Shown here one piece after another: positions 24,661 to 43,738 of a stretch of 64,000 bases of DNA. Under the pieces are notes generated by a model that had not been told where the DNA came from, did no database searches, and saw nothing but the letters and a program-made list of their open reading frames with translations. The position numbers and the translations under genes are program-made. Origin of the DNA: an uncultured Paenibacillaceae bacterium (GTDB lineage Bacteria; Bacillota; Bacilli; Paenibacillales; K13); the NCBI GenBank assembly GCA_913056365.1, contig CAJXLT010000016.1, positions 1 to 64,000 on the forward strand, in the 5' to 3' direction. Numbering within the stretch: the first letter of the stretch is position 1; each line of letters opens with the position of its first letter.

Positions 24661-27600
24661 TTACTCGATACTCTTCCCTTCCTTTTGCAGCAAATCCAGC
24701 ACGCGCTGAACCATAACAGCTGCTTCTTCACGAGTTATGGAGGCATTGGGTCGGAAGCTTCCATCTGGATACCCGCTTATAATTCCGTAGGTCCGCAGCT
24801 TTGAAATCGATGGCGAAGCCCACTCAGCAATTTCATCCTTATCCTTAAATGCTGCTTGCACAGCTGCCTCATCAGAAATCTCATCTTCCAGCATCCGAGC
24901 AATGATCGTTGCCGCTTCCGCGCGGGAAATCTCTCGCCATGGCTCCAGTCTCATCGTCTCTCCATCCGGCGATCCGACTAGCCAATGTCTTTCCAATGCA
25001 GCGGCTAAATAAGGTTTGGCCCATGTCCCAGCTTGTTCGCGATCTGTGAACACCTGCGGCAATTCATCTTGATTAAGGGGCACCCTGCTAGCCGCAACAA
25101 CGATCTTGGCAAATTCCTGCCTGTTGATCGGGCGTTGAGGCAGGAACAGCGTGTTACTTTCCTGCTGTTCACCATGCAGGACTCCAATGGAAGCCAACCG
25201 GTACACAGTATCCTCAGACCAACGACCTTCCATATCGGAAAATTTCGGCATATTCGGATTATACAGCAGCGCATATTTGTTGCTGAGGTGAGGCAGTCGA
25301 GCGACAACCGTCCCTTCCAAAACTTGAATGTCACCGCCAATATATGCCCATTGCTGGGTCCGCTCATTGTACCCGTATACGCCCAGATGGTCGACATTCT
25401 CTACATCTTCCAAAGCAAACTTGACGATTAATTCGGGAGGTTCAGCTAATGATACTGGTTTGCTCAGCTTAAATTCATAAATGTCTCCCATCACCTTCAC
25501 TATGTCGGTTTCATATCGGCTTCGGTTTGTCACTCTACCTATGCCGATTCCGACTGTTTCCGCCCATTCTTGGCTGAATACCCTTAATTCCGCTTGATTA
25601 TCAATGCTGATTACGGTGTCGGTGTCAGTAGATAACGCTGCATAAGTCACGAATTGAACATTCTGCTCCTCTTCTATGATCGATTGGAGTAACTGGCGAA
25701 GCAACGTATCTATCGATGGATCGGAACTGTGAACAATCGGCTGGCCCTCTTCCTCATTCTCATCGTCATCATTTCTCCCGTCACCTGAGTTTCCTCCTGT
25801 ATCCGGCATATACCATTCATCATCTGAACCTGGTTCAACCGGTTGCGACGAGTCATCTGCACGGACCTCTACTATAAAGGTATCTTCCAATGCAAAATCC
25901 CGGGATATATCATAAGAAGCTTTGACAACAATTTCCCCTTCATGACCAGCTTGCAACAAGCCGTCAGGAGACATTGTTCCATATTGTTCACCCAGTAATA
26001 TGGACCATTCCACATTGGTTGGATCCAAAGAATACACGTTCCCTTCCGCATCGATACCTGCTAATTGAAAAACCTGGGATTGATCAACATCCAGCATATA
26101 GGAGTCCCCCACTTCCACAGATTCTTCAGATCCTGCCAAGTGGATTTCAACTCGCTCCAAGTTCCCTACTTGCTGATTAACAGCCTCAGCTTGATACATT
26201 GTCTGATTTCCTGCATCATCTTCTGCCATAACTGAGATAAGACGGCTTAAGTACCCCTCCATCGGAAGCACTGTCTGAAACTGTCCTTCCTCATTCAGGG
26301 AAAGTGGATTGCCATTCACAGAGACAGTACTTCCCAGTTCAGCCGCACCTTTAATCAGGAGCGAGTCTCCTGTTACCATATAGTCGGCTCCGGCAGCTTC
26401 CACCTTCAGATCAGGCGGGGTCGTATCGGAGATGATCCTCACACCCGCTATCGTTCTGTCTCCCTGTTCATTGACACCTGTAACTTGAATCATATTGGCG
26501 CCTTCCTGCAATTCAATCGTCTGCTGCCATTCCTGTCCGGTATGTGCGCTTCTATACGCTTCATTAACTTGAATCTCTGTATCTAGTAGTTGATCCGACT
26601 GCATCGATACCAAGACCGCGCCATGATTCACGATATAGGACTTTCTGCCACTGCTGTCCACAAATTGTCGAATTTCACCGTTATCCGCCAACACTTCTAA
26701 GCCAATAACAGCTGGATTCGGTTCCGGCAAAAACATAACGTCTGAGTATGTTGGCGCACTGAACACTTTCACACCGTCCACCATTCGATACGCTGTGACC
26801 GAAATCATATAATTGTGACCAGGAAGCATGCCGAACTGTTGTCCCTGCGCATCTTCAAATGCGCCTCCGATGTTCGCTTCACGCACATTCCCTTCAACCT
26901 CAATACCTCCGGCTTGCGCTAACGGCTCTCCGTTCTCATCCATGACATAAAGATGGAATCCGTCGACTTCTTCGGGAAGCTCCCAGTTGACATGATAGTA
27001 GCCGTTGCCGATCGGCGATACTTCTACACCATTCGGTTGCACAGGCTCATAACGATTCTCGATTTGAATCGTGCTTGCGCTGTACAAGCTGTGATAATTC
27101 GTTTCGTCTTTGTACAGAACCGCTTTTATATAGTAGTCCCCTGAAGCAAGCGTATCCGGAACCGTCCATTCTGCGCTTCCCGAATCGGCATTCAAGCCGT
27201 TCTTCAGCAGTACACCGCTGTCTGCTTCATCCTCTGCCAGATACAAGGCGACTTCACCGCCGGCAAGATGCTCGGCCTGCCAGCTTGCCCGGAATGAATG
27301 ATCGCCCGTTTGTTCTACAGAGAATTCGCTGAGAGCAGGCAGCTCCAATACATCAAGCAGCGTCCATTCAAGCGATTGATCGGACTCCACGGTCCATTGT
27401 CCCGGCTTCGGATCAATCATACTTACATACACGCGCTGCTCCAGCGTTCCCGATTGACTGATCTCTTCAGAGATTTCCTGAACACGGTAATTGATATTTT
27501 CCTTCAACTCAACGATCTGGCCGTCAGGATCACGCACTACAATATTCGGAGTCTCGCCGGAATACTCCAGCTCCAACAATGCATAATCCTGCTCTCCTAT

Positions 27601-30600
27601 GTCTATCTGATAAGTTTGACTGCTGTCTTCCAAACCGTCAAAAGCCAAAATTTGTACAGCATGATAATCCTTCGAACCCTGTTCCTTCGAACTTGATGCG
27701 ACTCGGAAATTGTCGCCATAAGTCATAACGCCGAGATATTCGCCTGTCTCTCCGTCGTAGAACTTTTGATCGGCAAACCCTGCCTCATCCGATACACCTG
27801 CATCGCCGGATGCACTTTGGATACGAATAACAGGAGAACTATCCCCCCAATAATAGCGCACACTAACCGGTATACCTAATGCTTTGGCGCGGGCATACAC
27901 ACTTTCTGTACTTACTTCCGCTTCTACACGAGCTATTTCAACATCTCCAGTAAAAGGAATATACGAAGGAATAACAAGCGCAACCCAAGCATTCCCGCTC
28001 ATGTAGATCGGACCCATTATCCCTGTGCGGGAAGAATCATAGGATAGTGTCGCACCCAACCCACCTTGAATGACTTCAAAGACGCTTAGTTCTGCATTTA
28101 CTTTCATAGCTACCGCAAAGTGATTCGGCGAGTCATCAAGAATAATACTACCAGAAAATTCCTTGAGTATATCCATACCTGCGATATCGAATCCCCCGGT
28201 AAACGACATTCCCCGCAGAGAGGCTTCGAAGGTCATGTCATCCGCCTCCAGAATCTTGGCAAGATCCATACTGCCGATCAGCACCAGCTTAAGCGGCGGA
28301 AGACTGTAATAATTGCCTGTCACCGTATCGTATAAATTTTTGAATCCGCCTCCGCCCTTCGTAATATAGCCTACTACAGCCGGAGGGACGAGCGGAATGC
28401 CAGGCTGACCTCCTACAGCGAACGTGAAGTTATCCAGAATCGGAACGGAGCTTTCCGTAAAGCGCAATGTAAACAGGCCATCCATCTCAATCACTTCAAA
28501 GGCAACATGAGCTTCCATTTCATAAATATTGTCGAATGTATCTACTGCGACACGGGCCTCTGCCGACACGTCCATACCCGGCACGAAACCTTCAGGCAAT
28601 CCAACTTCCCCTTCCGCCCGCAATCCGATAAATCCGAATGTGTTGTCTTCCTGCAGACCAAAGCTAATTTTATCCGTATCGACGCTTAGCTTGAGTGGAT
28701 CCGTGCCCTTCTGCTTTTGTTTGTCTTGTTCTTGCTCCAATGCGCCGAAGTTCAAAGCCAGAGAACCACCAAAAGATACGCTGTTGTCGCCAATGACCGC
28801 TTTCTTAATTGTAATCGGGAAGAATGAAATTTGCTGTACGGCCGAAATCCACCCGAGCGATTCCCAATTCACTTCTATCGGCAATTGTCCTTTCTCCTCG
28901 TCTGCATCCAATGCGTAATCCATGCCATCCTCCAGCTCTATACGGAACGGACCGGACATAAAGGAAAAGCTCGGTATCTCAAGTGTACCCAGACCTGAAA
29001 TTTCAATAAAGTCATCCGCATGGTACAGATCTCTTTCCTTCTTCTCGACCACCATGCTTTGCTTCGATTGAAACCGGTCTTGGACCGTTCGGCTGTCATC
29101 GAAATGCACTACTGAATTAATAGTAGCCCCTGGCGCAATCTCGTAAATCGTCCTTCCTCCACTGCTGATTTCCTGGATTTTGCCGCGGATGGCGAGCAGT
29201 ACTTCTTCTTTGTTCCGCAGCAGTTCCAGCTCGTCCTCGCTACTTGCAGCAACAATGCGATACTCCTCATCCTCAGCCGTAACAGCTAACAAGCCATAGC
29301 TTCGGGAACGGTAACTCTCATCTGTAGTGAGCTCAATCGTTTGTTCGAACACACCGTATTCGCCACTGTCGATTTCAAGTGTATAAAGTCCCGGCTCCGG
29401 CGAGGTATCCCGCCACAGCGTATCCAGCCGAACCGTCATTCGTTTATCATCAACCACAGAGATATCTTGAATCTCATATCGCGTTCCGTCGCTTTGCCGA
29501 ATGAGCCCCGTATCCAGCTCCCAGTTCCCTTGTAACGCTTCAAAACCATTGCCTCGCAAATAGATCTCATGGGTGTCATCTTCAAGAAATAGCTTGTTGG
29601 GCAGCACGTCGAGCACCTGCACCTCCGGTAGTTGACCCGTAAGCGCCGGCAGCACAACAAAGCTGGATCTGGTTAGTTCCTCTCCACCTTCCGCTTGCGC
29701 GCTGACCCAATATTGAGCTGCAGTGTAGCTCGTCTGCGGCTTTGCTCTCACCTTCCATGTAACATGCTTCGTGTCATGGATACCGATATTCCCGATCGAT
29801 TGTTCGGCTTGTTCCCCATCCAGCAGTTCAAGCTCCAGTGGCAAGCCGATTCGGGCCTTCACGTTCTGAAGCGGCTCCGCTTGAGACGTCGTATTATCGA
29901 TCACCATTTGAACCTCAAAGATATCCTGAACATACCCGTCCCTGGCGGCGTTTACCTGCAGCTCTTTCGGCGCAATTAATTGCGTATCATACTTCGCTTG
30001 CTTCTCAGAGCTAAAGAAACTGCCTAGACCATAGTACGTTTCGTAAACTCGCTGTTCACCCGGCGCAATCGCAGTCGGCTCCCAGTAGAGGGCAACCGCG
30101 CTGTCCGCTGATCCGTATTGATTTCTCAACGTCGTGAAGTCCAGTTTCTCATCAATCTGATATTCCCACTTGGTACCAGATATGCCTTCCCAATGGGCAA
30201 CAATCATCCGATCTGGCTCTTCGCCGCCCCATCCTCTCAGAAATCCATAAGACATCACACCGGGAGCCAGCGCATGATCGACCGCTCGCCAAAAATACGG
30301 AATCGCTTCATCCACTTCCGTTTCCTTCCGAACAAATTCATTCCTCCCCGACAAGGCTATCGGGGAGCCGTCATCCGATCCGAGCATCGTATCCAGCAAC
30401 ACCCTGCTGCCAACCTGCATAGCGCTGTCCGAAGTATTGGTGACCTCATACGATATTTTTACATTACCGATATTCGGATTTTCCTTGTTGTTCACGAGTG
30501 TCAGCTTTTGAATGATTTCCAATCCGTCGACAGCCCACACGGATTGATTGGTTAACCCTTGCGAGATCGGGCGATGCAAAAAGGAACTATCCGCCCCCAT

Positions 30601-30903
30601 CCATCCATAATCGTTCCCGTAAATATAATCCTTGCCATTGACACGAAATGTGGTGAAGGACGTCTCGGGAAAGTCATCCCGAAATAATAACGACTGGTTT
30701 TGATCCCTATCCTTCAAGGGATGACCTTCCTTCGTCTGGATACTGTAACGTCCCGTATCTGGATGTACATGCACCTCAATATAATCGTTCACAATCTCTT
30801 CCAACGTTTCCGGCGTTACTGCAGCCTGGATGACAGGCGAAACCGCCGGGAACACCAACAGGCAACACAAACTTAACAGCAGCAGTCTTTTAGAAATCCC
30901 CAT
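24661..30903 (-). CDS. Giant secreted SLH-domain surface protein
   Basis: About 2080 aa. A signal peptide (residues 1-27, RLLLLSLCCLLVFPAVSPVIQA) is followed by a large N-terminal region I do not recognise (about 28-1180), with a glycine-rich stretch near residue 850 (YITKGGGG). Two fibronectin-III-like modules follow (about 1188-1385), then Ig-like modules with TTPPD and DDAGN signatures (about 1500-1570), a Big-2-like module (1580-1680) and an acidic Gly/Asn/Glu linker (1680-1720). Three SLH domains close the protein (1886-2070; last one ISGYPDGSFRPNASITREEA), anchoring it to pyruvylated wall polymer. The ATG at 30903 has GAGGT 8 bases upstream and overlaps the preceding gene by 14 nt, implying coupling. 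It is the last gene of a three-gene surface operon. Ligand unknown. Confidence 0.9.
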   Translation of the reverse strand: MGISKRLLLLSLCCLLVFPAVSPVIQAAVTPETLEEIVNDYIEVHVHPDTGRYSIQTKEGHPLKDRDQNQSLLFRDDFPETSFTTFRVNGKDYIYGNDYGWMGADSSFLHRPISQGLTNQSVWAVDGLEIIQKLTLVNNKENPNIGNVKISYEVTNTSDSAMQVGSRVLLDTMLGSDDGSPIALSGRNEFVRKETEVDEAIPYFWRAVDHALAPGVMSYGFLRGWGGEEPDRMIVAHWEGISGTKWEYQIDEKLDFTTLRNQYGSADSAVALYWEPTAIAPGEQRVYETYYGLGSFFSSEKQAKYDTQLIAPKELQVNAARDGYVQDIFEVQMVIDNTTSQAEPLQNVKARIGLPLELELLDGEQAEQSIGNIGIHDTKHVTWKVRAKPQTSYTAAQYWVSAQAEGGEELTRSSFVVLPALTGQLPEVQVLDVLPNKLFLEDDTHEIYLRGNGFEALQGNWELDTGLIRQSDGTRYEIQDISVVDDKRMTVRLDTLWRDTSPEPGLYTLEIDSGEYGVFEQTIELTTDESYRSRSYGLLAVTAEDEEYRIVAASSEDELELLRNKEEVLLAIRGKIQEISSGGRTIYEIAPGATINSVVHFDDSRTVQDRFQSKQSMVVEKKERDLYHADDFIEISGLGTLEIPSFSFMSGPFRIELEDGMDYALDADEEKGQLPIEVNWESLGWISAVQQISFFPITIKKAVIGDNSVSFGGSLALNFGALEQEQDKQKQKGTDPLKLSVDTDKISFGLQEDNTFGFIGLRAEGEVGLPEGFVPGMDVSAEARVAVDTFDNIYEMEAHVAFEVIEMDGLFTLRFTESSVPILDNFTFAVGGQPGIPLVPPAVVGYITKGGGGFKNLYDTVTGNYYSLPPLKLVLIGSMDLAKILEADDMTFEASLRGMSFTGGFDIAGMDILKEFSGSIILDDSPNHFAVAMKVNAELSVFEVIQGGLGATLSYDSSRTGIMGPIYMSGNAWVALVIPSYIPFTGDVEIARVEAEVSTESVYARAKALGIPVSVRYYWGDSSPVIRIQSASGDAGVSDEAGFADQKFYDGETGEYLGVMTYGDNFRVASSSKEQGSKDYHAVQILAFDGLEDSSQTYQIDIGEQDYALLELEYSGETPNIVVRDPDGQIVELKENINYRVQEISEEISQSGTLEQRVYVSMIDPKPGQWTVESDQSLEWTLLDVLELPALSEFSVEQTGDHSFRASWQAEHLAGGEVALYLAEDEADSGVLLKNGLNADSGSAEWTVPDTLASGDYYIKAVLYKDETNYHSLYSASTIQIENRYEPVQPNGVEVSPIGNGYYHVNWELPEEVDGFHLYVMDENGEPLAQAGGIEVEGNVREANIGGAFEDAQGQQFGMLPGHNYMISVTAYRMVDGVKVFSAPTYSDVMFLPEPNPAVIGLEVLADNGEIRQFVDSSGRKSYIVNHGAVLVSMQSDQLLDTEIQVNEAYRSAHTGQEWQQTIELQEGANMIQVTGVNEQGDRTIAGVRIISDTTPPDLKVEAAGADYMVTGDSLLIKGAAELGSTVSVNGNPLSLNEEGQFQTVLPMEGYLSRLISVMAEDDAGNQTMYQAEAVNQQVGNLERVEIHLAGSEESVEVGDSYMLDVDQSQVFQLAGIDAEGNVYSLDPTNVEWSILLGEQYGTMSPDGLLQAGHEGEIVVKASYDISRDFALEDTFIVEVRADDSSQPVEPGSDDEWYMPDTGGNSGDGRNDDDENEEEGQPIVHSSDPSIDTLLRQLLQSIIEEEQNVQFVTYAALSTDTDTVISIDNQAELRVFSQEWAETVGIGIGRVTNRSRYETDIVKVMGDIYEFKLSKPVSLAEPPELIVKFALEDVENVDHLGVYGYNERTQQWAYIGGDIQVLEGTVVARLPHLSNKYALLYNPNMPKFSDMEGRWSEDTVYRLASIGVLHGEQQESNTLFLPQRPINRQEFAKIVVAASRVPLNQDELPQVFTDREQAGTWAKPYLAAALERHWLVGSPDGETMRLEPWREISRAEAATIIARMLEDEISDEAAVQAAFKDKDEIAEWASPSISKLRTYGIISGYPDGSFRPNASITREEAAVMVQRVLDLLQKEGKSIE

Positions 30904-33900
30904 TAACATGTACCTCGATTCCGCTCTCGCTTGTAAACTGATCTGGGATCACATACACATGCGCGAGATGATATTGGCGTTCTGCGTCCTGAACAAGGAA
31001 CGTGTAGTAGCCTTGATTTGTAGCAGATAACGTACTCCCCTCCAGCGTCTGAAAGCCAGTTTTGAAATGCCCTTGATCCCACCGGCCGTACGTCCATTTC
31101 ACCGTTACATCTCCCTGAACCCCTAATAACTGCAGCGAAACGGCAGAACCCTTTACCCTTGCATTCCCGTCATCTGTTGGATGCGTATTGACATATACCG
31201 ACAGTTGATCCGTCAACACGACGAACGCCTTGCGCTCAACCACAGTTTCATTGCCTGCCTGATCCTTCACCCTATAAATTATCTCGTACGCTCCTGCTTG
31301 CTCGGAATCGACTTCGTGGTTCACAACGATCGAACTCGTCAAATCACCATCTATGTTATCTATCGCCTGTACATCCGCTATTGGACTCCATTCAGTGCTG
31401 ACCGGGATCAGCAGATGCTCGCCATTGGCGAATTGAATCGTTGGCGCGGTCCTGTCAATATTGGACACTTCAATCGGAATCACATATTCGTTCTGAAGTT
31501 CATCCTCCGCGAGCAACCAGTATATCGTGTTGTGTGTGAACGTCACCGTTGCCTTGCCATCATTATTTAATATGGTAAGCGGACGATCCGACTGTACGGT
31601 TACCGTAACATCATTGCGAGTGGGCTCCGTTTCACTGTAACTCAGTTCAATTTGAGCCTTCGTCTTATCGATATTCGCAACGGTCGCTTCAATCTCAGTC
31701 ATGTTACCGGCCAAATCCTGAATCATAAACGTAAAGCTGCCGTTGTCCCTAAACACACGCTCTTTGCTTCGATTATTGTTCCATACATAAATCGGTTCGT
31801 CCGCACTTACGGTCGCAATGACATCTTCTTTCGTCAAAGCTTCTGTACTGTAAGAAACGTTGGCAATCGGGGCCCGTCGGTCGATATTGTCTACGCTGGC
31901 CGTCACTTCCCTGGTATTCCCCGCTCTGTCCTGGAGCAAGAATACAAACGTGCCGTTGTCCGTAAAGTCCACAGCCGTCCCGCCCCCGTTGTTCAGCACG
32001 ACAACCGGTTCATTCGGACTAATGCTAACTCGTACCGTTGCATTCGTCATACCTGTCACGGAATAATGGACATCCGCTTCGGGTGGTGTTCGATCAATCC
32101 GATCCACAACGGCAGTTGTTTGACTCACGTTGCCAGCTGCATCCCGCCATTCGAATGTAAACAGTCCATTCTCCGTGAACGTGATCTGCTCCCCTCCCTC
32201 GCTGGTGATGATCGGGGCAAGACCTGAATTATCCTCGGTAAGCAGGGTCACTGTGACATCATCGTTAGTCCAGCCGACAGAGCTGTAAGACAGCGTTCCT
32301 GTCGGCGCTTCCCTGTCAATCCAGCTAACTTGGGCGTTCACTTGCCCTTCATTGCCTGCCGCATCTTCATAGAAGAAGGTGAACGTACCGTTATCTTCAA
32401 ACATATAGCTCAAACTTCCGTCATTATTCAACACAGATACAGGTGCACCTTCATTCGAAAAATATACAGATGCGGTTACCGATTGCTGCGTCCAATCCTC
32501 TGTGCTATACGTGATGGCTGGCTGCGGAGCTTCCCGTACAATCCAGTCTACTGTTGCCGTTAGGGTTGACTCATTGCCCGCCTCATCAACAAAGACAAAA
32601 GTATGCGAACCATTCTCCGTAAATACAACCGTCTTCTCTCCGCCAATCACCATTACCTCACTGCGGTCATCCTGCGGCAGCAAGGTCACCGTCACGTTAT
32701 CCCGCGTCCATGACGGATGGCTGTACAGCAACTCTCCGGTCGGCGGCGTTCGATCAATATGCTGAACCGTCACCTCTTCCTCATTCGTCTGTCCGGTTTC
32801 CAAATCCTCAATCGTGAAGGTAAGCGTTCCATTCTCGTGAAACTTGTAGACGGCTTCCGTCACGGTCGCTCCTTCGTTGATTGCTGTCACATGAAGAAGT
32901 TCTGCATTAGATGGAGCCTGAATATGAGACAGCGAACGCTGCGGCTCTCCTTCTACATTAATGGTGACTTCAACCGGCTGATTCGTCCATTGATCAGGAG
33001 ACATGCTCACTTGTGCAATAGGGAGACTGTCATCGATCCAGCTCACCTCAGCTGTCGCTGTACCGATATTGCCCGCTTCATCCTCGAATACAAACGTATA
33101 ACTGCCATTTTCCTCAAAGGTATAAGTTCGTACGTCTCCAGCCGGTGTCGTAACCGTACCCGGTTCATTCAGGACAAGCTGGGCTATAACCGGCATCGCC
33201 GTGCGGGAGTACGTACTGTAACTGACCGTACCTATGGGCGCCGTGTTATCCAGCAGATAAGGATTGCTTACCGCGAAGCTGACGTTCCCCACTTCATCCT
33301 CTGCTTTGATCCACAAATACCAGGTGCCGTCCGTATCGGCTAATTCCGCTTCGCGGTCTGCACCCATCGCATTCCATTCAGCCGACGCCGGTTGTGCGTT
33401 CGCATTTTGCGACCATGCGTAAAATAATGGAATGTTGTCAGCAGCAGTTACGTTATCGCTGGCTTCGATTGCAGTGGACACATGTTGTTGTTTCACGACT
33501 GTGCCATTCGAGACAAAATTGATGATTGGCTTTTGCTTGTCAATGTGTGCAACCGTCACTTCCGCTTCATTCGTATTCCCGGCCAAATCGGAGAAGGAAA
33601 CCGAATACGTTCCATTCTGCTCCACAACTTTCGTTGTCTGTCCCGCTGGTGAAAAGTTGTCTTCATAGGAAACCGTGGCGGTAACAGCACCCTTCGTCCA
33701 GCTGTCCGGGCTGTACGTAATGTCCACAGCCTGAGGAGGTGTGATATCATAAATGATCTCATCTGAGTAGACCTCGCTTATATTCCCAGCACTGTCCCTG
33801 TACTTCACAGACAAAGTTTGAGCCCCTTCCGCGGCATTCAGCGTAATGGACCTTGACTCGATCAATGTCAGCCAGTCACTCCACTCTCCTCCGTTCAGGG

Positions 33901-36079
33901 CAACCGACAGTTCCAACGATGTATCCATAGCATCGGAAGCCGCAAAGTTAGCAGACGCTTCAGCTTCATTCGTATGCGTATCCACAAATTGAACGGTTCC
34001 TGAAGGAGCGAGATGATCCAAGTAAAACGGCTGGCTACGAATCTTCTTCACATTGCCGGCTTGATCGGCTGCTTTGACATGGATGTAATAGATCCCCGAC
34101 TTCTCGTTAAACGTGAAGGCGCCGTCTAGGGAAGCGTCCCAATCCTCTTCATCAACTCCGGGAATTTCGTCTTCAGATACCAGATAAGAAACCGTGTATG
34201 CAGAGAAATCAGGTATTTGCCCGTCTATCTGCAACTGAGTTGTGGCTGAAGATACATACTGTCCGTTCGTTCCATCAACCGTAAAGGCAAGCTCAACAGC
34301 CTCGTTATCTAGCAGAAAGCCCTCGGACGTGCGATATATATTAACATTTCCAAGCTGATCCAACGTCTTCACATAGAAATACCACATTCCATTTTGTCCG
34401 GCTGGCGAAACAGCCAATTCATCCAAGGGAAATGCACCGTCATGTAGAAGCTCCCAATCTTCGTCATCCTCAACAGGAGGCGATAGCGACGGACTCCATA
34501 ACGTATACACTCGCCCACTTTCACCTGGTTCCCCCTCTACCCGGTAAGATATGCTGTGGGATTGGGCCGGTACTGCACTGCCCTCAGAATCGAAGTCAAC
34601 AGTTGGCGCAGTTTGATCCATTCTATATGCCCCGCTGGTGTAAGTCGCCTTATTTCCGGCCACATCCCATGCAGTGACTTCCAATGTATGGTCGCCTTCA
34701 GATAAAGGGCTGCTTACCGTTATACCTGTGTCCTGAACTTCAACGGGTGTTCCACTGTTCCAGCGGTAGGATAGCTTCTCCACGCCCGATTTGCCATAAT
34801 CAGAAGCAGTAACGGTAACTTCCATCTGCTCATTGCTCTCATCGCTTGACGGATCAAAAACAACCATCGGCTTTTCATTGTCGAAGCGAACGGGACCCAA
34901 GGTTTGGATCGTCTCATTGCCGACGTCGTCTACAGCCCGAAGATGTACATAATACGTTCCTGTCACCGTTCCTGGATTCGGAAGGGGCTGTTCCAAGCCA
35001 GCGCCAACGCCATCAATGGTCTCTGAAGCAGGCGCTGCGCTTTGCGTATTCCACTTGTAATACAGCAAGATATCCTCCGGCGCTAAACCGGCGCGATCCG
35101 CTGCATTGACCGTAACAGTATGCACTTGTTGATAACTGTCACCCGGGGGCACTACAATATCCTTGAACACAGGTCCGGATGTATCGATCACAATTTCCTC
35201 ATCCTTGCCCGGATCCTCATCCGTTAGCAAGCCATTCACCGGCAGTGTCCGATCCAGCGGATTACCGGCCAGATCCGTTATCGTCCCTCCTGTTATCCCT
35301 GTCACTTCCAGACCGGCGATATCATCGCCAGGCTGTATGGTGTACGAGAAGTGGGCCGACACCTCGCTTGCCCATGCTAATTGTGCGGTCCTGCCATTAT
35401 TGAGCGTAGCTTGCACCGACTCACTGACCTTCACCTCTTCGTTAAACGACACATTGATAAAAATTTCTTCTCCGGCAGTGAAAATGAGCAAATCCGAATG
35501 CTCAGCTCTACTTCCTGTAATCATCTGCTCAATCTCAGGCGCAGTCAGATCAATAATGATGTCGTCTGTAAACAAATGCGGAATAATTTGATTATCATTA
35601 TCATCAAACTTATCAAATTCATCATTATTTGGATGACAACCGTTGGTTGCCGGCGCTTCCATTCCGTGATCAAATCTTATTTGTTGAACAGTTCCTTCAG
35701 GAGCATCCGATTGGACGGTATAATGAAATGTTATCATGGTAGAACGAATTCCGTCGTAATTATATACTTCCTTCCCATCCCATTTGATATGAAAGTATTC
35801 ATCATCATTTAATTCCGCTTGTACGGCAACATATTGTTCATCCTCCTCGTTTACTCCACAAGCAGCCAAACCGCTCCTAAATTCAGTTTCAACGAAAAGC
35901 ATCTTTAATTCAATCTGATCGCCTTCCTTATAATAATCATCATCCCCAACCGTGTAGATTTCTTTAGGATGAAACCCCTCATATTCCGGGTGTTCTCCAT
36001 TGTGCGCATGAACCCATTGATTGGGAACAACGCTGAGCACGACCAAGAATAAAACCAGATATAATAGGCGTATTTTCAT
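30890..36079 (-). CDS. Secreted protein of tandem Ig-like repeats, no wall anchor
   Basis: About 1729 aa. A signal peptide (IRLLYLVLFLVVLSVVPNQWVHA) precedes an N-terminal region with acidic DDNDN-type stretches that could bind calcium, then Ig/cadherin-like modules with AGN signatures. About nine tandem units of roughly 70-90 residues follow (about 780-1545). Each has the pattern YSxxxWT, then VTVT, NNGG/ENGSFTF, DxAGN and a closing WIDR or NIDK. Near the C-terminus is a DUF5011/HYR-like module (AIDNIDGDLTSSIVV) and a last domain without known signature. There is no SLH, LPXTG or transmembrane anchor. Two adjacent ATGs (36082, 36079) follow GAGGAG; the second has better spacing. It is the middle gene between the two SLH genes, so it may bind to them; that is inference. 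Confidence 0.88.
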   Translation of the reverse strand: MKIRLLYLVLFLVVLSVVPNQWVHAHNGEHPEYEGFHPKEIYTVGDDDYYKEGDQIELKMLFVETEFRSGLAACGVNEEDEQYVAVQAELNDDEYFHIKWDGKEVYNYDGIRSTMITFHYTVQSDAPEGTVQQIRFDHGMEAPATNGCHPNNDEFDKFDDNDNQIIPHLFTDDIIIDLTAPEIEQMITGSRAEHSDLLIFTAGEEIFINVSFNEEVKVSESVQATLNNGRTAQLAWASEVSAHFSYTIQPGDDIAGLEVTGITGGTITDLAGNPLDRTLPVNGLLTDEDPGKDEEIVIDTSGPVFKDIVVPPGDSYQQVHTVTVNAADRAGLAPEDILLYYKWNTQSAAPASETIDGVGAGLEQPLPNPGTVTGTYYVHLRAVDDVGNETIQTLGPVRFDNEKPMVVFDPSSDESNEQMEVTVTASDYGKSGVEKLSYRWNSGTPVEVQDTGITVSSPLSEGDHTLEVTAWDVAGNKATYTSGAYRMDQTAPTVDFDSEGSAVPAQSHSISYRVEGEPGESGRVYTLWSPSLSPPVEDDEDWELLHDGAFPLDELAVSPAGQNGMWYFYVKTLDQLGNVNIYRTSEGFLLDNEAVELAFTVDGTNGQYVSSATTQLQIDGQIPDFSAYTVSYLVSEDEIPGVDEEDWDASLDGAFTFNEKSGIYYIHVKAADQAGNVKKIRSQPFYLDHLAPSGTVQFVDTHTNEAEASANFAASDAMDTSLELSVALNGGEWSDWLTLIESRSITLNAAEGAQTLSVKYRDSAGNISEVYSDEIIYDITPPQAVDITYSPDSWTKGAVTATVSYEDNFSPAGQTTKVVEQNGTYSVSFSDLAGNTNEAEVTVAHIDKQKPIINFVSNGTVVKQQHVSTAIEASDNVTAADNIPLFYAWSQNANAQPASAEWNAMGADREAELADTDGTWYLWIKAEDEVGNVSFAVSNPYLLDNTAPIGTVSYSTYSRTAMPVIAQLVLNEPGTVTTPAGDVRTYTFEENGSYTFVFEDEAGNIGTATAEVSWIDDSLPIAQVSMSPDQWTNQPVEVTINVEGEPQRSLSHIQAPSNAELLHVTAINEGATVTEAVYKFHENGTLTFTIEDLETGQTNEEEVTVQHIDRTPPTGELLYSHPSWTRDNVTVTLLPQDDRSEVMVIGGEKTVVFTENGSHTFVFVDEAGNESTLTATVDWIVREAPQPAITYSTEDWTQQSVTASVYFSNEGAPVSVLNNDGSLSYMFEDNGTFTFFYEDAAGNEGQVNAQVSWIDREAPTGTLSYSSVGWTNDDVTVTLLTEDNSGLAPIITSEGGEQITFTENGLFTFEWRDAAGNVSQTTAVVDRIDRTPPEADVHYSVTGMTNATVRVSISPNEPVVVLNNGGGTAVDFTDNGTFVFLLQDRAGNTREVTASVDNIDRRAPIANVSYSTEALTKEDVIATVSADEPIYVWNNNRSKERVFRDNGSFTFMIQDLAGNMTEIEATVANIDKTKAQIELSYSETEPTRNDVTVTVQSDRPLTILNNDGKATVTFTHNTIYWLLAEDELQNEYVIPIEVSNIDRTAPTIQFANGEHLLIPVSTEWSPIADVQAIDNIDGDLTSSIVVNHEVDSEQAGAYEIIYRVKDQAGNETVVERKAFVVLTDQLSVYVNTHPTDDGNARVKGSAVSLQLLGVQGDVTVKWTYGRWDQGHFKTGFQTLEGSTLSATNQGYYTFLVQDAERQYHLAHVYVIPDQFTSESGIEVHVNGDF

Positions 36080-36101
36080 CATCTTCTCCTCACTTCGCAA
36101 C

Positions 36102-36131
36102 GAGTCACTGCCCCCATAGAGGCAGTGACTC
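36102..36131 (-). other. Perfect intercistronic hairpin
   Basis: GAGTCACTGCC and its exact complement GGCAGTGACTC form an 11-bp stem with an 8-nt loop between the first and second surface genes, about 23 nt before the second start codon. No T-run follows in the direction of transcription, so it is not a typical terminator. RNA processing or stability control of the operon is more likely. Confidence 0.75.
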
Positions 36132-36152
36132 ATCGAGCAATTTATAATTTAT

Positions 36153-39487: not shown

Positions 39488-40600
39488 TTATATCAATTTT
39501 TCTACTAGCTTCCGGATATGACCCGATGGACTCATGTCCAATTCATCTTGTAATATTTTTTCATATCTCTTATAGTACATGACGGCCGACGTTGTATCCT
39601 CCCGTATAAGGCTTAATTCAATAAGCGACTTATACGCTTCGTCTGCTAACGGATTATGATAGATAAGTTTATTGAGCGTATCAGCTGCCTTTCCGGTTTC
39701 TTCGTCCTTTATGTAATATTCCGCTAGTTTCAAATGAAGTTTTTCGTATTCATTCTCAAACCAAATACGCTTGCTCATTGCCCATTCATATGGCTTGTCG
39801 TCAAAATAATTACCTTTATACAGCAGCGAAGCCTTTTCCAACGTTTGTATCTGAGATTCATCTGCGGGACTCGATTCGAGAATTTCAATAAATTCCAGCA
39901 TATCACATTGAAGCCGATCTGTCTTAACCTGATAAGAACCTCTTGATCTTACGAACATGTCGTTATATCCCTTTGTGTTTAAGGTATCGCGGATATAGTA
40001 ACAAGTAGCATGCAAATTTTTGGAAGCTTTATCTATATCCATCTCAGGCCATAACGTATCAATAATCTTTTCCTTTGAAACTGGTTTTCCTTGATAATGA
40101 ATCAGAAAAGCAAATAATTCCTCGGCTTTGGCGGTTCTCCAGTGTATGCTCCCATTTTCCGATCCTTGAGGAAAACATAAGAAATGGCCAAAACATTCGA
40201 TACTCATTTTCTCCGACTTTTTAGCCTGCGCTCTCGCTTGCTTCTTCTTCATCATACTGGCAACCTGATTTTGAATATCTTCAAGCTCGATCGGTTTCAG
40301 TAGATAACCGACCGCATGTGCTTGAAATGCCTGAAGCGCGTATTTGTCATAGGCGGTTACAAACACGATATCAATTTCGGGTTTCGTCTCGAATATGCGT
40401 TCCGATAGTTCCAATCCATTAATCTGAGGCATTTCAATATCCAGAAAAACGATATCCACTTCCCGGCTTTCTATAAAATCCAATGCTTCCTCAGCTTTAG
40501 TAAAGCCCCCGATCAATGTCATATTTTCTTCTTGCCTGATCACCCTCTCAAATCGTTCCAAAGCTTTCTTCTCATCATCTACAGCCACTGCGCGAAGCAT
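39488..40600 (-). CDS. Response regulator with SARP/BTAD-type output
   Basis: 370 aa. A CheY-like receiver (1-115) with acidic pair DD (8-9), phosphoacceptor Asp54 (FLDIEMP), Thr82 and Lys102. It is joined to a winged-helix domain (about 132-225; SIECFGHFLCF, LFAFLIHYQGKPVSKEKIID) and a helical bacterial transcriptional activator (BTAD) domain (about 235-365; LLYKGNYFDDKPYEWA, Y-rich TPR-like helices). This is the AfsR/SARP architecture, here fused to a receiver. The ATG at 40600 overlaps the kinase stop (TGATG) with GGAGG 8 bases upstream, so kinase and regulator are coupled. Likely target: the surface operon just downstream, from the phased direct repeats in its promoter. Confidence 0.9.
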   Translation of the reverse strand: MLRAVAVDDEKKALERFERVIRQEENMTLIGGFTKAEEALDFIESREVDIVFLDIEMPQINGLELSERIFETKPEIDIVFVTAYDKYALQAFQAHAVGYLLKPIELEDIQNQVASMMKKKQARAQAKKSEKMSIECFGHFLCFPQGSENGSIHWRTAKAEELFAFLIHYQGKPVSKEKIIDTLWPEMDIDKASKNLHATCYYIRDTLNTKGYNDMFVRSRGSYQVKTDRLQCDMLEFIEILESSPADESQIQTLEKASLLYKGNYFDDKPYEWAMSKRIWFENEYEKLHLKLAEYYIKDEETGKAADTLNKLIYHNPLADEAYKSLIELSLIREDTTSAVMYYKRYEKILQDELDMSPSGHIRKLVEKLI

Positions 40601-43600
40601 CAACCATTCCTCCCATCCGGCACTATAAAGCTGACCTTTGTTCCTACACCCGACTTACTGGTAAAGATCAGTCCCTTACCGTAGCGCTGTTCTAGACGTG
40701 TATTGATATTGTACAGTCCAACGCTTCCTTCGTTCCTCGGAGCTTTGAGAATCTCTTCGATCTGCTGTTCGGACATACCACTCCCGTCATCCTCAACGGC
40801 GAATCGTATGCCTTCTTGAAGATGCTTGATACTGATCAGAACCGTACCTCCGCTATCTTTGGTATTTACTCCGTGCTTCACAGCATTTTCAACGAGTGTT
40901 TGCAAGGTCATAGGCGGCAGCTGGACATCGATTTCATCTTCGATATCAAACTGCACTTTTAAATCTTCAAATCTTGCTTTTTCTATATTCAAGTAAGCCT
41001 TGACCAACGCCAGTTCCTTATCTGCCGAAACGAGATTACCCAGATTGGCGAAATCCAAAGTGCCTCTCAAATATTTGGAAAGCGATATAATGAGCTCACC
41101 GGCCTCACGCGAATCCGTTTCGCAGCATGCCGCAATCGTATTCAGCGCATTGTACAGAAAGTGAGGTTTAATCTGCGCGTGCAGGAAAGCCATCTCCACA
41201 TTAACCAGTTCGCCGGCAGACGTTTTCATCTTCAGCAACGTTCGTATTCGCGCTTTCAACTCGCCAGACTCAACGGGTTTGCTCAGAAAGTCATTTACCC
41301 CTGCTTGAAACGCAGCCAGAATGTCTTCCGGTTGATTTCTGGCTGTCAACAGCAAGACAGGCAGTTCGGACAAGGAGTGCCTTTGACGTATTTCACGGCA
41401 CACATCGTAACCCGACATGCCCGGCATCATTAAATCAATTACTGCCATATCTATGCTGTTGTTATTCTTGAGTTCAGCCAACGCTTCCATACCATCTGGC
41501 ACAGCAATGACAGAGTAATGCTCAGCAGACAACAAACTAATTAACACTTGACGGTTGATTGGGTCGTCATCCGCCACGAGGATCGTGGAATCCCCGCTGC
41601 CATCCGTTCGATTCGTATCGAAAAATTGCTCTTGTGCTCCAGTAGCGATTTCAGCCAGCATATGTTTTCGTTCATTCACTCCCGAAGTCTCTTCCATTCG
41701 CTCGTCAGCTCCGGTTGCCTTTGGCATTGTAAACGTAAACACGGATCCATTGTCCGGTTCTGATTCCACGCGAATCGTCCCGTCATGAAGCTCAACAAGA
41801 CGTTTGGTGATGCTAAGCCCCAATCCGGTACCTCCATACTCCTTGGTAATTGCTCTGCCCGCCTGCTCGAACGACTCGAAGATCGCATTCTGCTTGTCCT
41901 TCTCGATACCAATTCCCGTGTCATGAACCGATATTTCCAGCCATCTGTCCTTGGCTTTCGCTGTCACGCGAATTTCTCCCTCTGCAGTAAACTTCAGCGC
42001 ATTGCCTATCAAATTATATAAAATTTGTGCTAGTCTGTCTTCATCAGCATGCACATAAGGAAGATCTTCCGGCAATTCATCAGCAAGCACAATCTGCTTG
42101 CCGTCGGCCATATGTCGAAACATCTCCAAGGCCACACTAACTAGTGACCTTAGATCAACTGCTTTTTTTCTCAGCACAAGCTCTCCATTTTTCAACTTAG
42201 AAAAATCGAGCAAATCGTTAATCAGATTTGACAGTCTGCTCGCAACCGACACGACAGCTGATAAATTTGCCCGTTCAGTCTTATTCAGTCGTCCGGCTGC
42301 ACTTTCAAGCACCGATTGCGATAGGTTAAGCACCCCATGAAGCGGGGTTCTCAGTTCATGCGTCGTATTGGCTAGAAATTCGTCTTTCAGCCGATCAAGC
42401 GATATCAGCTTTTCCGACATCGTTTCAATAGTGTGATACGCTTTGGAAAAGCGCCGTGCCAGTTCCGCTGCTTGCACAAAAAGCAGTACAAAGAATCCAT
42501 AGTACACAATGGGCTCGCCAAACCAATTAAATATGTAAGGATCTTCTAGGTATAGCATATCGTAAACGAGCGCAGCCGTAGAAATGAAGACGCCTGTTAC
42601 TTGGAGCCAGGCGCCTCCACGTTTCCGCCATACCGCCAGTATAAGACCAGTTACGTAATAAATACTGCACAATGCGGCAAATACATGGAAGATACTGAGC
42701 CAGCGTGTATAAAATTCAGCAGGAAATATAATTACGCTCACTGTAAATGCCGCAGCGACACTAACCAATGGTACGATGATTTTCTTGGAAAACTCATCTG
42801 GATACAGCTGACGCATGAATAGCGTAGCAATCGTGATCGCACCGTAATAAGTAAAATACTCAATGAAAGTAATTAACCTTAAATGCGCTTCCGGAGAGAG
42901 GTCTGGGAGGAACACATCGTTTACCCCCATCAACCTTAATACGACAATGAAGCAAAGGAACCCGAACACGAGGGCCGATTTGCTTGAACGGCGTAATTGA
43001 AAAATAACGAGATGATAAAGACCGAGCACCAGCGCGCTTCCCAAAATGATCATATGCACGGCAAATTCTTCCCTATCTCTAGCTGTCAACTGATTCTCAT
43101 CTGCCAGCTCAAGCGCATACCACATTCCGCCACGGGCGTATAAGTAATTGGATACGTGCACGATGATGTCGAACTTCCCAGAAGATGGTTGGATGACGAC
43201 GGTTTGCGGCACATAAGCTGGCTCTGCCGATTCTTTGGATTTTGCTGCCTTGCCGCTTTCAGCCACGATTTGACCGTCAATCATCACGGTGTAAGCTGTA
43301 GACATTGTTGGAATTTTCAACGCCAATGTATCCGGGAATTGTTTCATTATCACTTGCAAACGATATGTCGCATACCCCTGTCCAGGCAATGGTCGCCCGT
43401 CCAGCTCATAATTATTCCAAACATTTGGAACACCTACATATCCGGTCCCATGCGGTAGGCTTCCACTGCTGATTTCATCATGCTCAAGCAACTGCCCCCA
43501 ATAAAATTCCCATTCCCCGTCTAGCTTGACGATGCCATCCGTAGCCAAGTTCCAATCTGTTAAGTCCAGAACACCTTGTTCGATCTCAGGTCTCGGTGTG

Positions 43601-43704
43601 GAAGGTTTCATTTGTACGGAAGATAAGATAATGCCTATCGCCAGCACCAACACGATACAAATCATTACTATTCGAATAGAGGGATGATTGCGAAATTTGT
43701 TCAT
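40600..43704 (-). CDS. Hybrid sensor kinase with two different kinase modules
   Basis: 1034 aa. An N-terminal signal-anchor helix and an extracellular 7TMR-DISM-type domain (about 45-205, with GYATYRLQV) precede about seven membrane helices (215-415). A HisKA plus HATPase core follows (His449 in TTHELRTPLHG; NALKF; DTGIGI; GGTGLGLSI), then a receiver (Asp757 in VIDLMMP, Lys809). A second, LytS-type kinase closes the protein (His848 in QIKPHFLYNAL; NAVKHG; DDGSGM; GLYNINTRL). The ATG at 43704 has GAGGAAGG 5 bases upstream. Phosphate may pass internally to Asp757 or directly to the coupled regulator. The 7TMR-DISM sensor suggests a carbohydrate-like or wall-derived signal; that is inference. 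Confidence 0.93.
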   Translation of the reverse strand: MNKFRNHPSIRIVMICIVLVLAIGIILSSVQMKPSTPRPEIEQGVLDLTDWNLATDGIVKLDGEWEFYWGQLLEHDEISSGSLPHGTGYVGVPNVWNNYELDGRPLPGQGYATYRLQVIMKQFPDTLALKIPTMSTAYTVMIDGQIVAESGKAAKSKESAEPAYVPQTVVIQPSSGKFDIIVHVSNYLYARGGMWYALELADENQLTARDREEFAVHMIILGSALVLGLYHLVIFQLRRSSKSALVFGFLCFIVVLRLMGVNDVFLPDLSPEAHLRLITFIEYFTYYGAITIATLFMRQLYPDEFSKKIIVPLVSVAAAFTVSVIIFPAEFYTRWLSIFHVFAALCSIYYVTGLILAVWRKRGGAWLQVTGVFISTAALVYDMLYLEDPYIFNWFGEPIVYYGFFVLLFVQAAELARRFSKAYHTIETMSEKLISLDRLKDEFLANTTHELRTPLHGVLNLSQSVLESAAGRLNKTERANLSAVVSVASRLSNLINDLLDFSKLKNGELVLRKKAVDLRSLVSVALEMFRHMADGKQIVLADELPEDLPYVHADEDRLAQILYNLIGNALKFTAEGEIRVTAKAKDRWLEISVHDTGIGIEKDKQNAIFESFEQAGRAITKEYGGTGLGLSITKRLVELHDGTIRVESEPDNGSVFTFTMPKATGADERMEETSGVNERKHMLAEIATGAQEQFFDTNRTDGSGDSTILVADDDPINRQVLISLLSAEHYSVIAVPDGMEALAELKNNNSIDMAVIDLMMPGMSGYDVCREIRQRHSLSELPVLLLTARNQPEDILAAFQAGVNDFLSKPVESGELKARIRTLLKMKTSAGELVNVEMAFLHAQIKPHFLYNALNTIAACCETDSREAGELIISLSKYLRGTLDFANLGNLVSADKELALVKAYLNIEKARFEDLKVQFDIEDEIDVQLPPMTLQTLVENAVKHGVNTKDSGGTVLISIKHLQEGIRFAVEDDGSGMSEQQIEEILKAPRNEGSVGLYNINTRLEQRYGKGLIFTSKSGVGTKVSFIVPDGRNG

Positions 43705-43738
43705 GTTATCCTTCCTCACTGAAGAGATTTCTTCCCCT

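Follow-up and report, generated by a model that had tools for sequence, protein, structure and literature searches.

A surface protein in which no anchor can be recognised is usually classed as secreted, and the locus analysed here raises the question of whether that classification would suit a giant exported protein of Ig-like repeats whose gene lies between two genes for SLH proteins. The window—by which we mean the whole stretch of 64,000 nucleotides analysed, from an uncultured Paenibacillaceae bacterium—contains these three as consecutive genes, all on the minus strand: the gene of the upstream SLH protein P0001, then that of the Ig-repeat protein (gene A), and then that of a giant SLH-anchored protein (gene B). 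We conclude that A and B are probably two subunits of one surface assembly, with B seated on the wall and A held as a fibre via its C-terminal domain (CTD).

Protein A and its C-terminal domain

Gene A (30890..36079, minus strand) encodes an unanchored secreted protein of 1729 amino acids (aa), as deduced from reading the frame and from Pfam, with the stop codon at 30892–30890 and a start that we place at the ATG at 36079, which choice is favoured by the Shine–Dalgarno spacing, the alternatives being a second in-frame ATG, at 36082, and an extended frame reaching 36133. The initial annotation had described A as possessing a signal peptide and lacking any SLH, sortase, or membrane anchor, which description Pfam and hydropathy confirmed. 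The signal peptide at the N-terminus was judged by eye and by hydropathy; and in the A protein of the window we found no SLH domain by Pfam, no hydrophobic stretch or membrane helix at the C-terminus, and no sortase (LPXTG) motif in the last 60 aa. The source genome carries one sortase gene. Among the 101 A proteins tested none has a hydrophobic C-terminus, while a loose LPXTG pattern occurs in two, inside the CTD and with no accompanying helix. The Pfam families scoring above their cut-offs in A were Ig-type domains alone, namely Big_13, Bact_surface_Ig-like, and Big_3_2. The Ig-like units had been put at about nine, which figure proved too low: domain boundaries together with DxxGN motifs indicate about 17–18, the terminal CTD included, and a number near 9 fits only the regular units of 70–93 aa that are confined to the second half of the protein. 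A plasmid search with A returned 18 records, none covering 80% of the protein and all below 60% identity, and in a direct PDB search the DUF5011/Big_3 domain was the sole match.

The CTD, which we propose as a docking domain, occupies 30944..31249 on the minus strand (profile A3, E 2.6e-32) and is directly preceded by a DUF5011/Big_3-type Ig domain (31226..31426, minus strand, the limits being those of the Pfam match). The latter was assigned to Bact_surface_Ig-like PF16403 by Pfam and to PDB 2kpn by sequence, and aligned with 9fbo_A at a VIA-align Z of 12.3 over 78 residues. The last 295 residues of A were modelled with a mean pLDDT of 90 as Ig-like units, the DUF5011/Big_3-type domain, and a terminal Ig-like CTD, whose fold matches were only middling (Z 6.8, 76 residues aligned, 3.2 Å, for the archaeal surface-layer protein 1l0q). 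For the window proteins, neither the CTD nor the N-terminal region of B matched any Pfam or NCBIfam family at E 0.1. The CTD is common to all the A proteins compared: across 50 sequences K56 is invariant and G48, Y75, T76, E83, and R84 are conserved at 90% or above; the domain ends 1–5 residues from the C-terminus of A in every row but one, where 17 residues follow; and it is retained over a range of A lengths from 1117 to 2917 aa.

Weak partial matches to the CTD were also recorded in other frames, at 15 places (E 7.7e-8 to 9.2e-6) that cover model positions 36–102 only; these we discounted as being, in all likelihood, related Ig repeats. Partial CTD-like units recur as repeats in other large frames (G212:C88, G287:C1:6313972-6314379, and G223:C30), and these units perhaps represent the family of Ig repeats that gave rise to the CTD.

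Protein B and its anchor

Gene B (24661..30903, minus strand) encodes 2080 aa when translated from the ATG at 30903, with a GAGG sequence 9 nt upstream; from that start our reading confirmed the 14-nt overlap of A with the downstream SLH gene that had been noted initially, and with the ATG at 30909 the overlap would be 20 nt. By its C-terminus B is an SLH surface protein, bearing three SLH domains at 24718..25242 on the minus strand (PF00395, E 1.5e-24, in two stretches; three by the in-house profile). From what is known of the biology of SLH domains, together with the presence of a CsaB gene in the source genome (TIGR03609, 277.7 bits against a cut-off of 213.1 that is likewise exceeded in 4 of 14 control genomes), we infer that B is fixed by these domains to a pyruvylated wall polymer.

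No Pfam family was found at E 0.1 over the first ~1100 residues of B, whose N-terminal region (29659..30804, minus strand; profile A2, E 3.9e-211) served as a profile in the surveys described below. Residues 31–1196 were predicted with a mean pLDDT of 79.5. In that model the first ~270 aa form a beta-supersandwich resembling the N-terminal domain of the GH94 phosphorylases and mutarotases (8rf0_A: VIA-align Z 17.8, 225 residues aligned, 3.1 Å), and a long run of beta-strands follows, the fold comparison hardly reaching beyond residue 434. We take the predicted likeness to the phosphorylases as a shared carbohydrate-enzyme fold and claim neither a function nor an activity from it.

Conservation of the A–B pair

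Two more A–B pairs are present in the source genome, on contigs C3 and C2, with A directly before B (at 30 and 12 nt, respectively); and a genome of another family, G029, has one pair in the same arrangement. The B proteins are collinear over their full length, with 38–50% identity within the source genome and 30% to that of G029.

To survey the order, we searched 296 genomes with profiles of the CTD (50 sequences) and the N-terminal domain of B, with a threshold of E<1e-11 for the CTD and with B defined as a frame of over 1500 aa. Among the matches listed there were 106 CTDs and 106 long B frames, of which 105 are adjacent on the same strand with A first; the 106th pair, that of G221, is divided between two of the 540 contigs in its assembly. 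The end of the CTD precedes the B domain by 130–244 nt (or by 681 nt in one frameshifted copy, as counted for its second piece). Each of the two sets covers 85 of the 296 genomes, many of which are closely related, so that these counts are not independent events. Orthologues standing alone without an SLH partner, which according to the initial annotation would speak against A being held, were sought over the matches listed in the 296 genomes and none was seen as regards B: no strong CTD and no long B occurs alone there, the candidates scored in many genomes being the best 6 for B or the best 16–17 for the CTD, such that an orphan could be missed. Six of the 112 order B rows have no CTD nearby, these being that of G221 and five short frames (656–1468 aa) that represent other proteins sharing the N-terminal domain of B; and a further row of 233 aa, in G141, covers the front of a B interrupted by a frameshift.

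In a phylum survey of 398 genomes, the matches listed contained nine CTDs in seven genomes: three are the source genome's own, three (in G025, G028, and G031) had already been counted within the order, and three are new, from outside the order, all three with the B domain directly after. Among named genomes—a set that overlaps with that of the order, some Paenibacillus loci being common to both—46 of 73 B-domain loci have a CTD-bearing A directly before B, and these pairs extend over Paenibacillus, Sedimentibacter, Vallitalea, Lutispora, Thermincola, Lachnospiraceae, and Erysipelotrichaceae, including Clostridia. The other 27 loci, some of which have little upstream DNA, comprise 25 shorter proteins, one spurious match (L177), and the sole long B in the named loci that is not preceded by an A (L160:9713-17149, from a Lachnospiraceae metagenome assembly). 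Since the shorter proteins carry the N-terminal domain of B with no CTD beside it, the presence of that domain does not by itself call for A. In L155, L167, L148, L154, and similar loci, such a shorter B relative (~660–710 aa) has no CTD gene before it and is followed by a gene whose product combines SLH with what looks by eye like a membrane helix at the C-terminus; the shorter B relative of L155 is preceded by a protein having a TonB_C-like domain. Such shorter relatives may represent an earlier form of the B domain.

In the genomes searched, pairing and gene order are constant; this, like the distribution of anchors considered below, can be read directly from sequence. Because the CTD neighbours B in 105 of the 106 order cases, with the 106th consistent, it is very unlikely that A is secreted to stand alone, and the original contention that the middle protein is not freely secreted is thereby supported.

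The main rival explanation is that the two genes are co-regulated without their products touching: A would be secreted freely or belong to the matrix and merely be co-expressed with B, the two genes forming a regulon and their products no complex. Extracellular matrix proteins built of Ig-like units do exist, A lacks a domain for binding the wall, shared regulation could by itself account for the adjacency, and neither in the order nor in the named set did we find a frame joining the CTD to the B domain; furthermore, two-component genes often lie near the A–B pair, which proximity makes a common regulation plausible. Against such a regulon stand the constant order, the short spacing, and the one-to-one numbers over the 106 order loci and in distant families, along with a terminal domain that is kept through the more than twofold variation in the length of A, a degree of constancy that goes beyond what co-regulation usually entails. 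We therefore regard co-expression without contact as unlikely, though deserving of more weight than any other rival.

In the window itself, two-component genes occupy 39488–43719. Over 100 loci, the four query loci being left out, a match to the kinase part was found near the A–B pair at 41 and a match to any query at 48, while some 13 HATPase matches would be expected in 760 kb of flanks given 80 in the 4.65 Mb of the source genome. The two-component genes are accordingly enriched, though not universal; and, with the expectation drawn from the density in one genome and the loci related to each other, this enrichment was not counted as evidence.

Distribution of anchors among relatives

We read 105 order pairs for anchors, consisting of 103 loci plus L278 and L279. 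None of the 105 A proteins contains an SLH domain, whereas at the end of B there are three SLH domains in 92 pairs (one of them frameshifted) and a dockerin in the other 13. In this dockerin class, where B has 1896 aa, PF00404 exceeded the Pfam cut-off in both of the two B proteins tested, and the calcium-loop pattern, which we take to mark the dockerin of B, was present in all 12 proteins scanned (in one as a single copy) and was visible in the 13th. The gene that follows B overlaps it by 4 nt and encodes three SLH domains in all 13 instances; the N-terminus of its product was weakly cohesin-like in one of two proteins examined (PF00963, 18.8 bits against a cut-off of 24.1), the other giving no match. 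As the dockerin stands in the place of the SLH domains, the C-terminus of B is the attachment end of that protein, and A would depend on another for its place.

Also in the dockerin class, the gene before A encodes a relative of the clostripain-family (C11) peptidases in 12 of 12 loci by BLAST, and among the 104 loci searched a C11 peptidase occurs directly before A in that class only. The reference peptidase (L274:16552-18207) has one SLH stretch, established by Pfam for L274 only, and those of the 11 other loci of the class are its relatives. This peptidase could process A or B.

With respect to the 46 named pairs, three SLH domains were found within one B frame in 31, six B frames run off their contig, and four are split, with the SLH domains beyond the break (in L125 as read in L186, which is the same contig). 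The remaining five, in Erysipelotrichaceae and Lachnospiraceae (L126, L127, L150, L157, and L166), are paired full-length B proteins without SLH; among the five, a clear hydrophobic helix at the end of B, with a charged tail, is seen in L166 alone.

The upstream gene P0001

The product of P0001 (36153..39305, minus strand) contains propeller-like repeats, recognised by eye, together with two Flg_new and three SLH domains by Pfam. The gap of 73 nt that separates the gene from A contains a strong, near-perfect 17-bp hairpin (36083..36140, minus strand; MFE -31 kcal/mol, z -5.85 versus 200 shuffles) with no T run after it, which element is perhaps concerned with RNA processing or with the tuning of expression. 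A single operon of P0001, A, and B is possible.

The short distance, the common strand, and the anchor of three SLH domains would suit a three-part assembly, as initially proposed, in which P0001 also binds A; and yet its gene is missing beside the two other A–B pairs of the source genome and beside that of G029. A same-strand frame with three SLH domains within 3 kb upstream of A was found for just 3 of 103 order A genes: that of the window and those of L234 and L229, where the frames, identified by their SLH content, lie at 1169 and 1834 nt. In eight more of the 103, the upstream frame carries a single SLH-like stretch and corresponds to the dockerin-class peptidase. Among the named genomes no upstream SLH frame accompanies any of the 46 A genes, at least 500 nt of upstream DNA being available for 39. 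Relatives of P0001 are widespread (40 of 60 genomes), with matches mostly over the C-terminal half, and the one on contig C3 is located ~143 kb away from the A–B pair of that contig. Since an SLH neighbour is so seldom found upstream of other A genes, we consider P0001 a local addition outside the conserved module and, on grounds of conservation, reject it as a third subunit, the participation of its product in binding A being quite improbable. What stands of the original proposal is a conserved two-gene module of A and B; and of the two neighbours suggested as holding the middle protein, B is retained as the proposed holder, while conservation lends no support to P0001.

The least probable of the readings weighed—that the CTD serves as a signal for export or folding during secretion, with B as a chaperone and not the final anchor—has in its favour the conservation of the CTD and its position at the extreme C-terminus, as in the sorting domains of other secretion systems, which are likewise C-terminal and conserved, but A has an ordinary-looking signal peptide, and the wall-binding SLH domains of B, or its dockerin beside an SLH gene, suit a final location on the wall, so that we give that reading very little credence.

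Comparison with known systems

The WxL–WxLIP (DUF916/DUF3324) clusters of Enterococcus and Lactobacillus resemble the A–B pair in that the surface proteins are co-encoded. The WxL protein has a C-terminal binding domain, and its co-encoded partner has been proposed to bind it and keep it stable on the wall (PMC10599100, PMC5817068). The model of B matched WxLIP (9i1y, 9i25) in Foldseek with a probability of 1.00, a TM-score to the target of 0.36–0.41, and an rmsd of 7.7–8.4, and Pfam at E 0.1 gave no WxL, DUF916, or DUF3324 in either A or B. The two systems differ in that WxLIP has a membrane helix whereas B has SLH domains or a dockerin, and in that A, a long Ig fibre, carries a different domain at its C-terminus.

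In the cellulosome, a secreted protein devoid of an anchor is displayed through a partner that bears SLH domains (PMC5817068). The likeness of this arrangement—a dockerin scaffold on a cohesin-SLH anchor—to the present one includes, in 13 relatives, a dockerin on B and three SLH domains in the next gene; in contrast, the contact proposed between A and B uses another domain, and Pfam detected neither a cohesin nor a dockerin, nor any catalytic domain, in the A and B of the window. Surface proteins of Paenibacillus are anchored by SLH domains, as described for P. curdlanolyticus S1 (PMC6823336). B shares that C-terminal anchoring with ordinary SLH proteins of the genus, but differs from them in that its first ~1100 residues have no Pfam family and in being paired with A.

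Proposed assembly and its implications

We suggest that both A and B are exported by their signal peptides, after which B would bind to the pyruvylated wall polymer through its C-terminal SLH domains. A, having no anchor of its own, would be held non-covalently by B through the extreme C-terminal Ig-like CTD, and its ~17 Ig units would project outward as a fibre that probably binds a polymer, another cell, or a surface. The contact between the two proteins, the CTD as the site of that contact, and the target of the fibre are all deductions from the arrangement of genes and domains. We lean slightly, furthermore, toward considering the CTD and some part of B an undescribed docking pair, with B as an exchangeable adapter that ends, depending on the lineage, in SLH domains, a dockerin, or a membrane helix. 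Indirect display through an anchored partner is already known in principle, the domains of the A–B pair being different ones; and we found no description of that pair in the open-access literature, a search in which work published in subscription journals would be missed.

If the proposed assembly is correct, the giant Ig-repeat proteins in 85 of the 296 genomes of the order, and in several families of the Bacillota, would be surface-bound. The docking domain would then be recognisable from sequence and would constitute a testable marker for indirect display, and the pair might possibly provide another docking module for engineering beside that of cohesin and dockerin.
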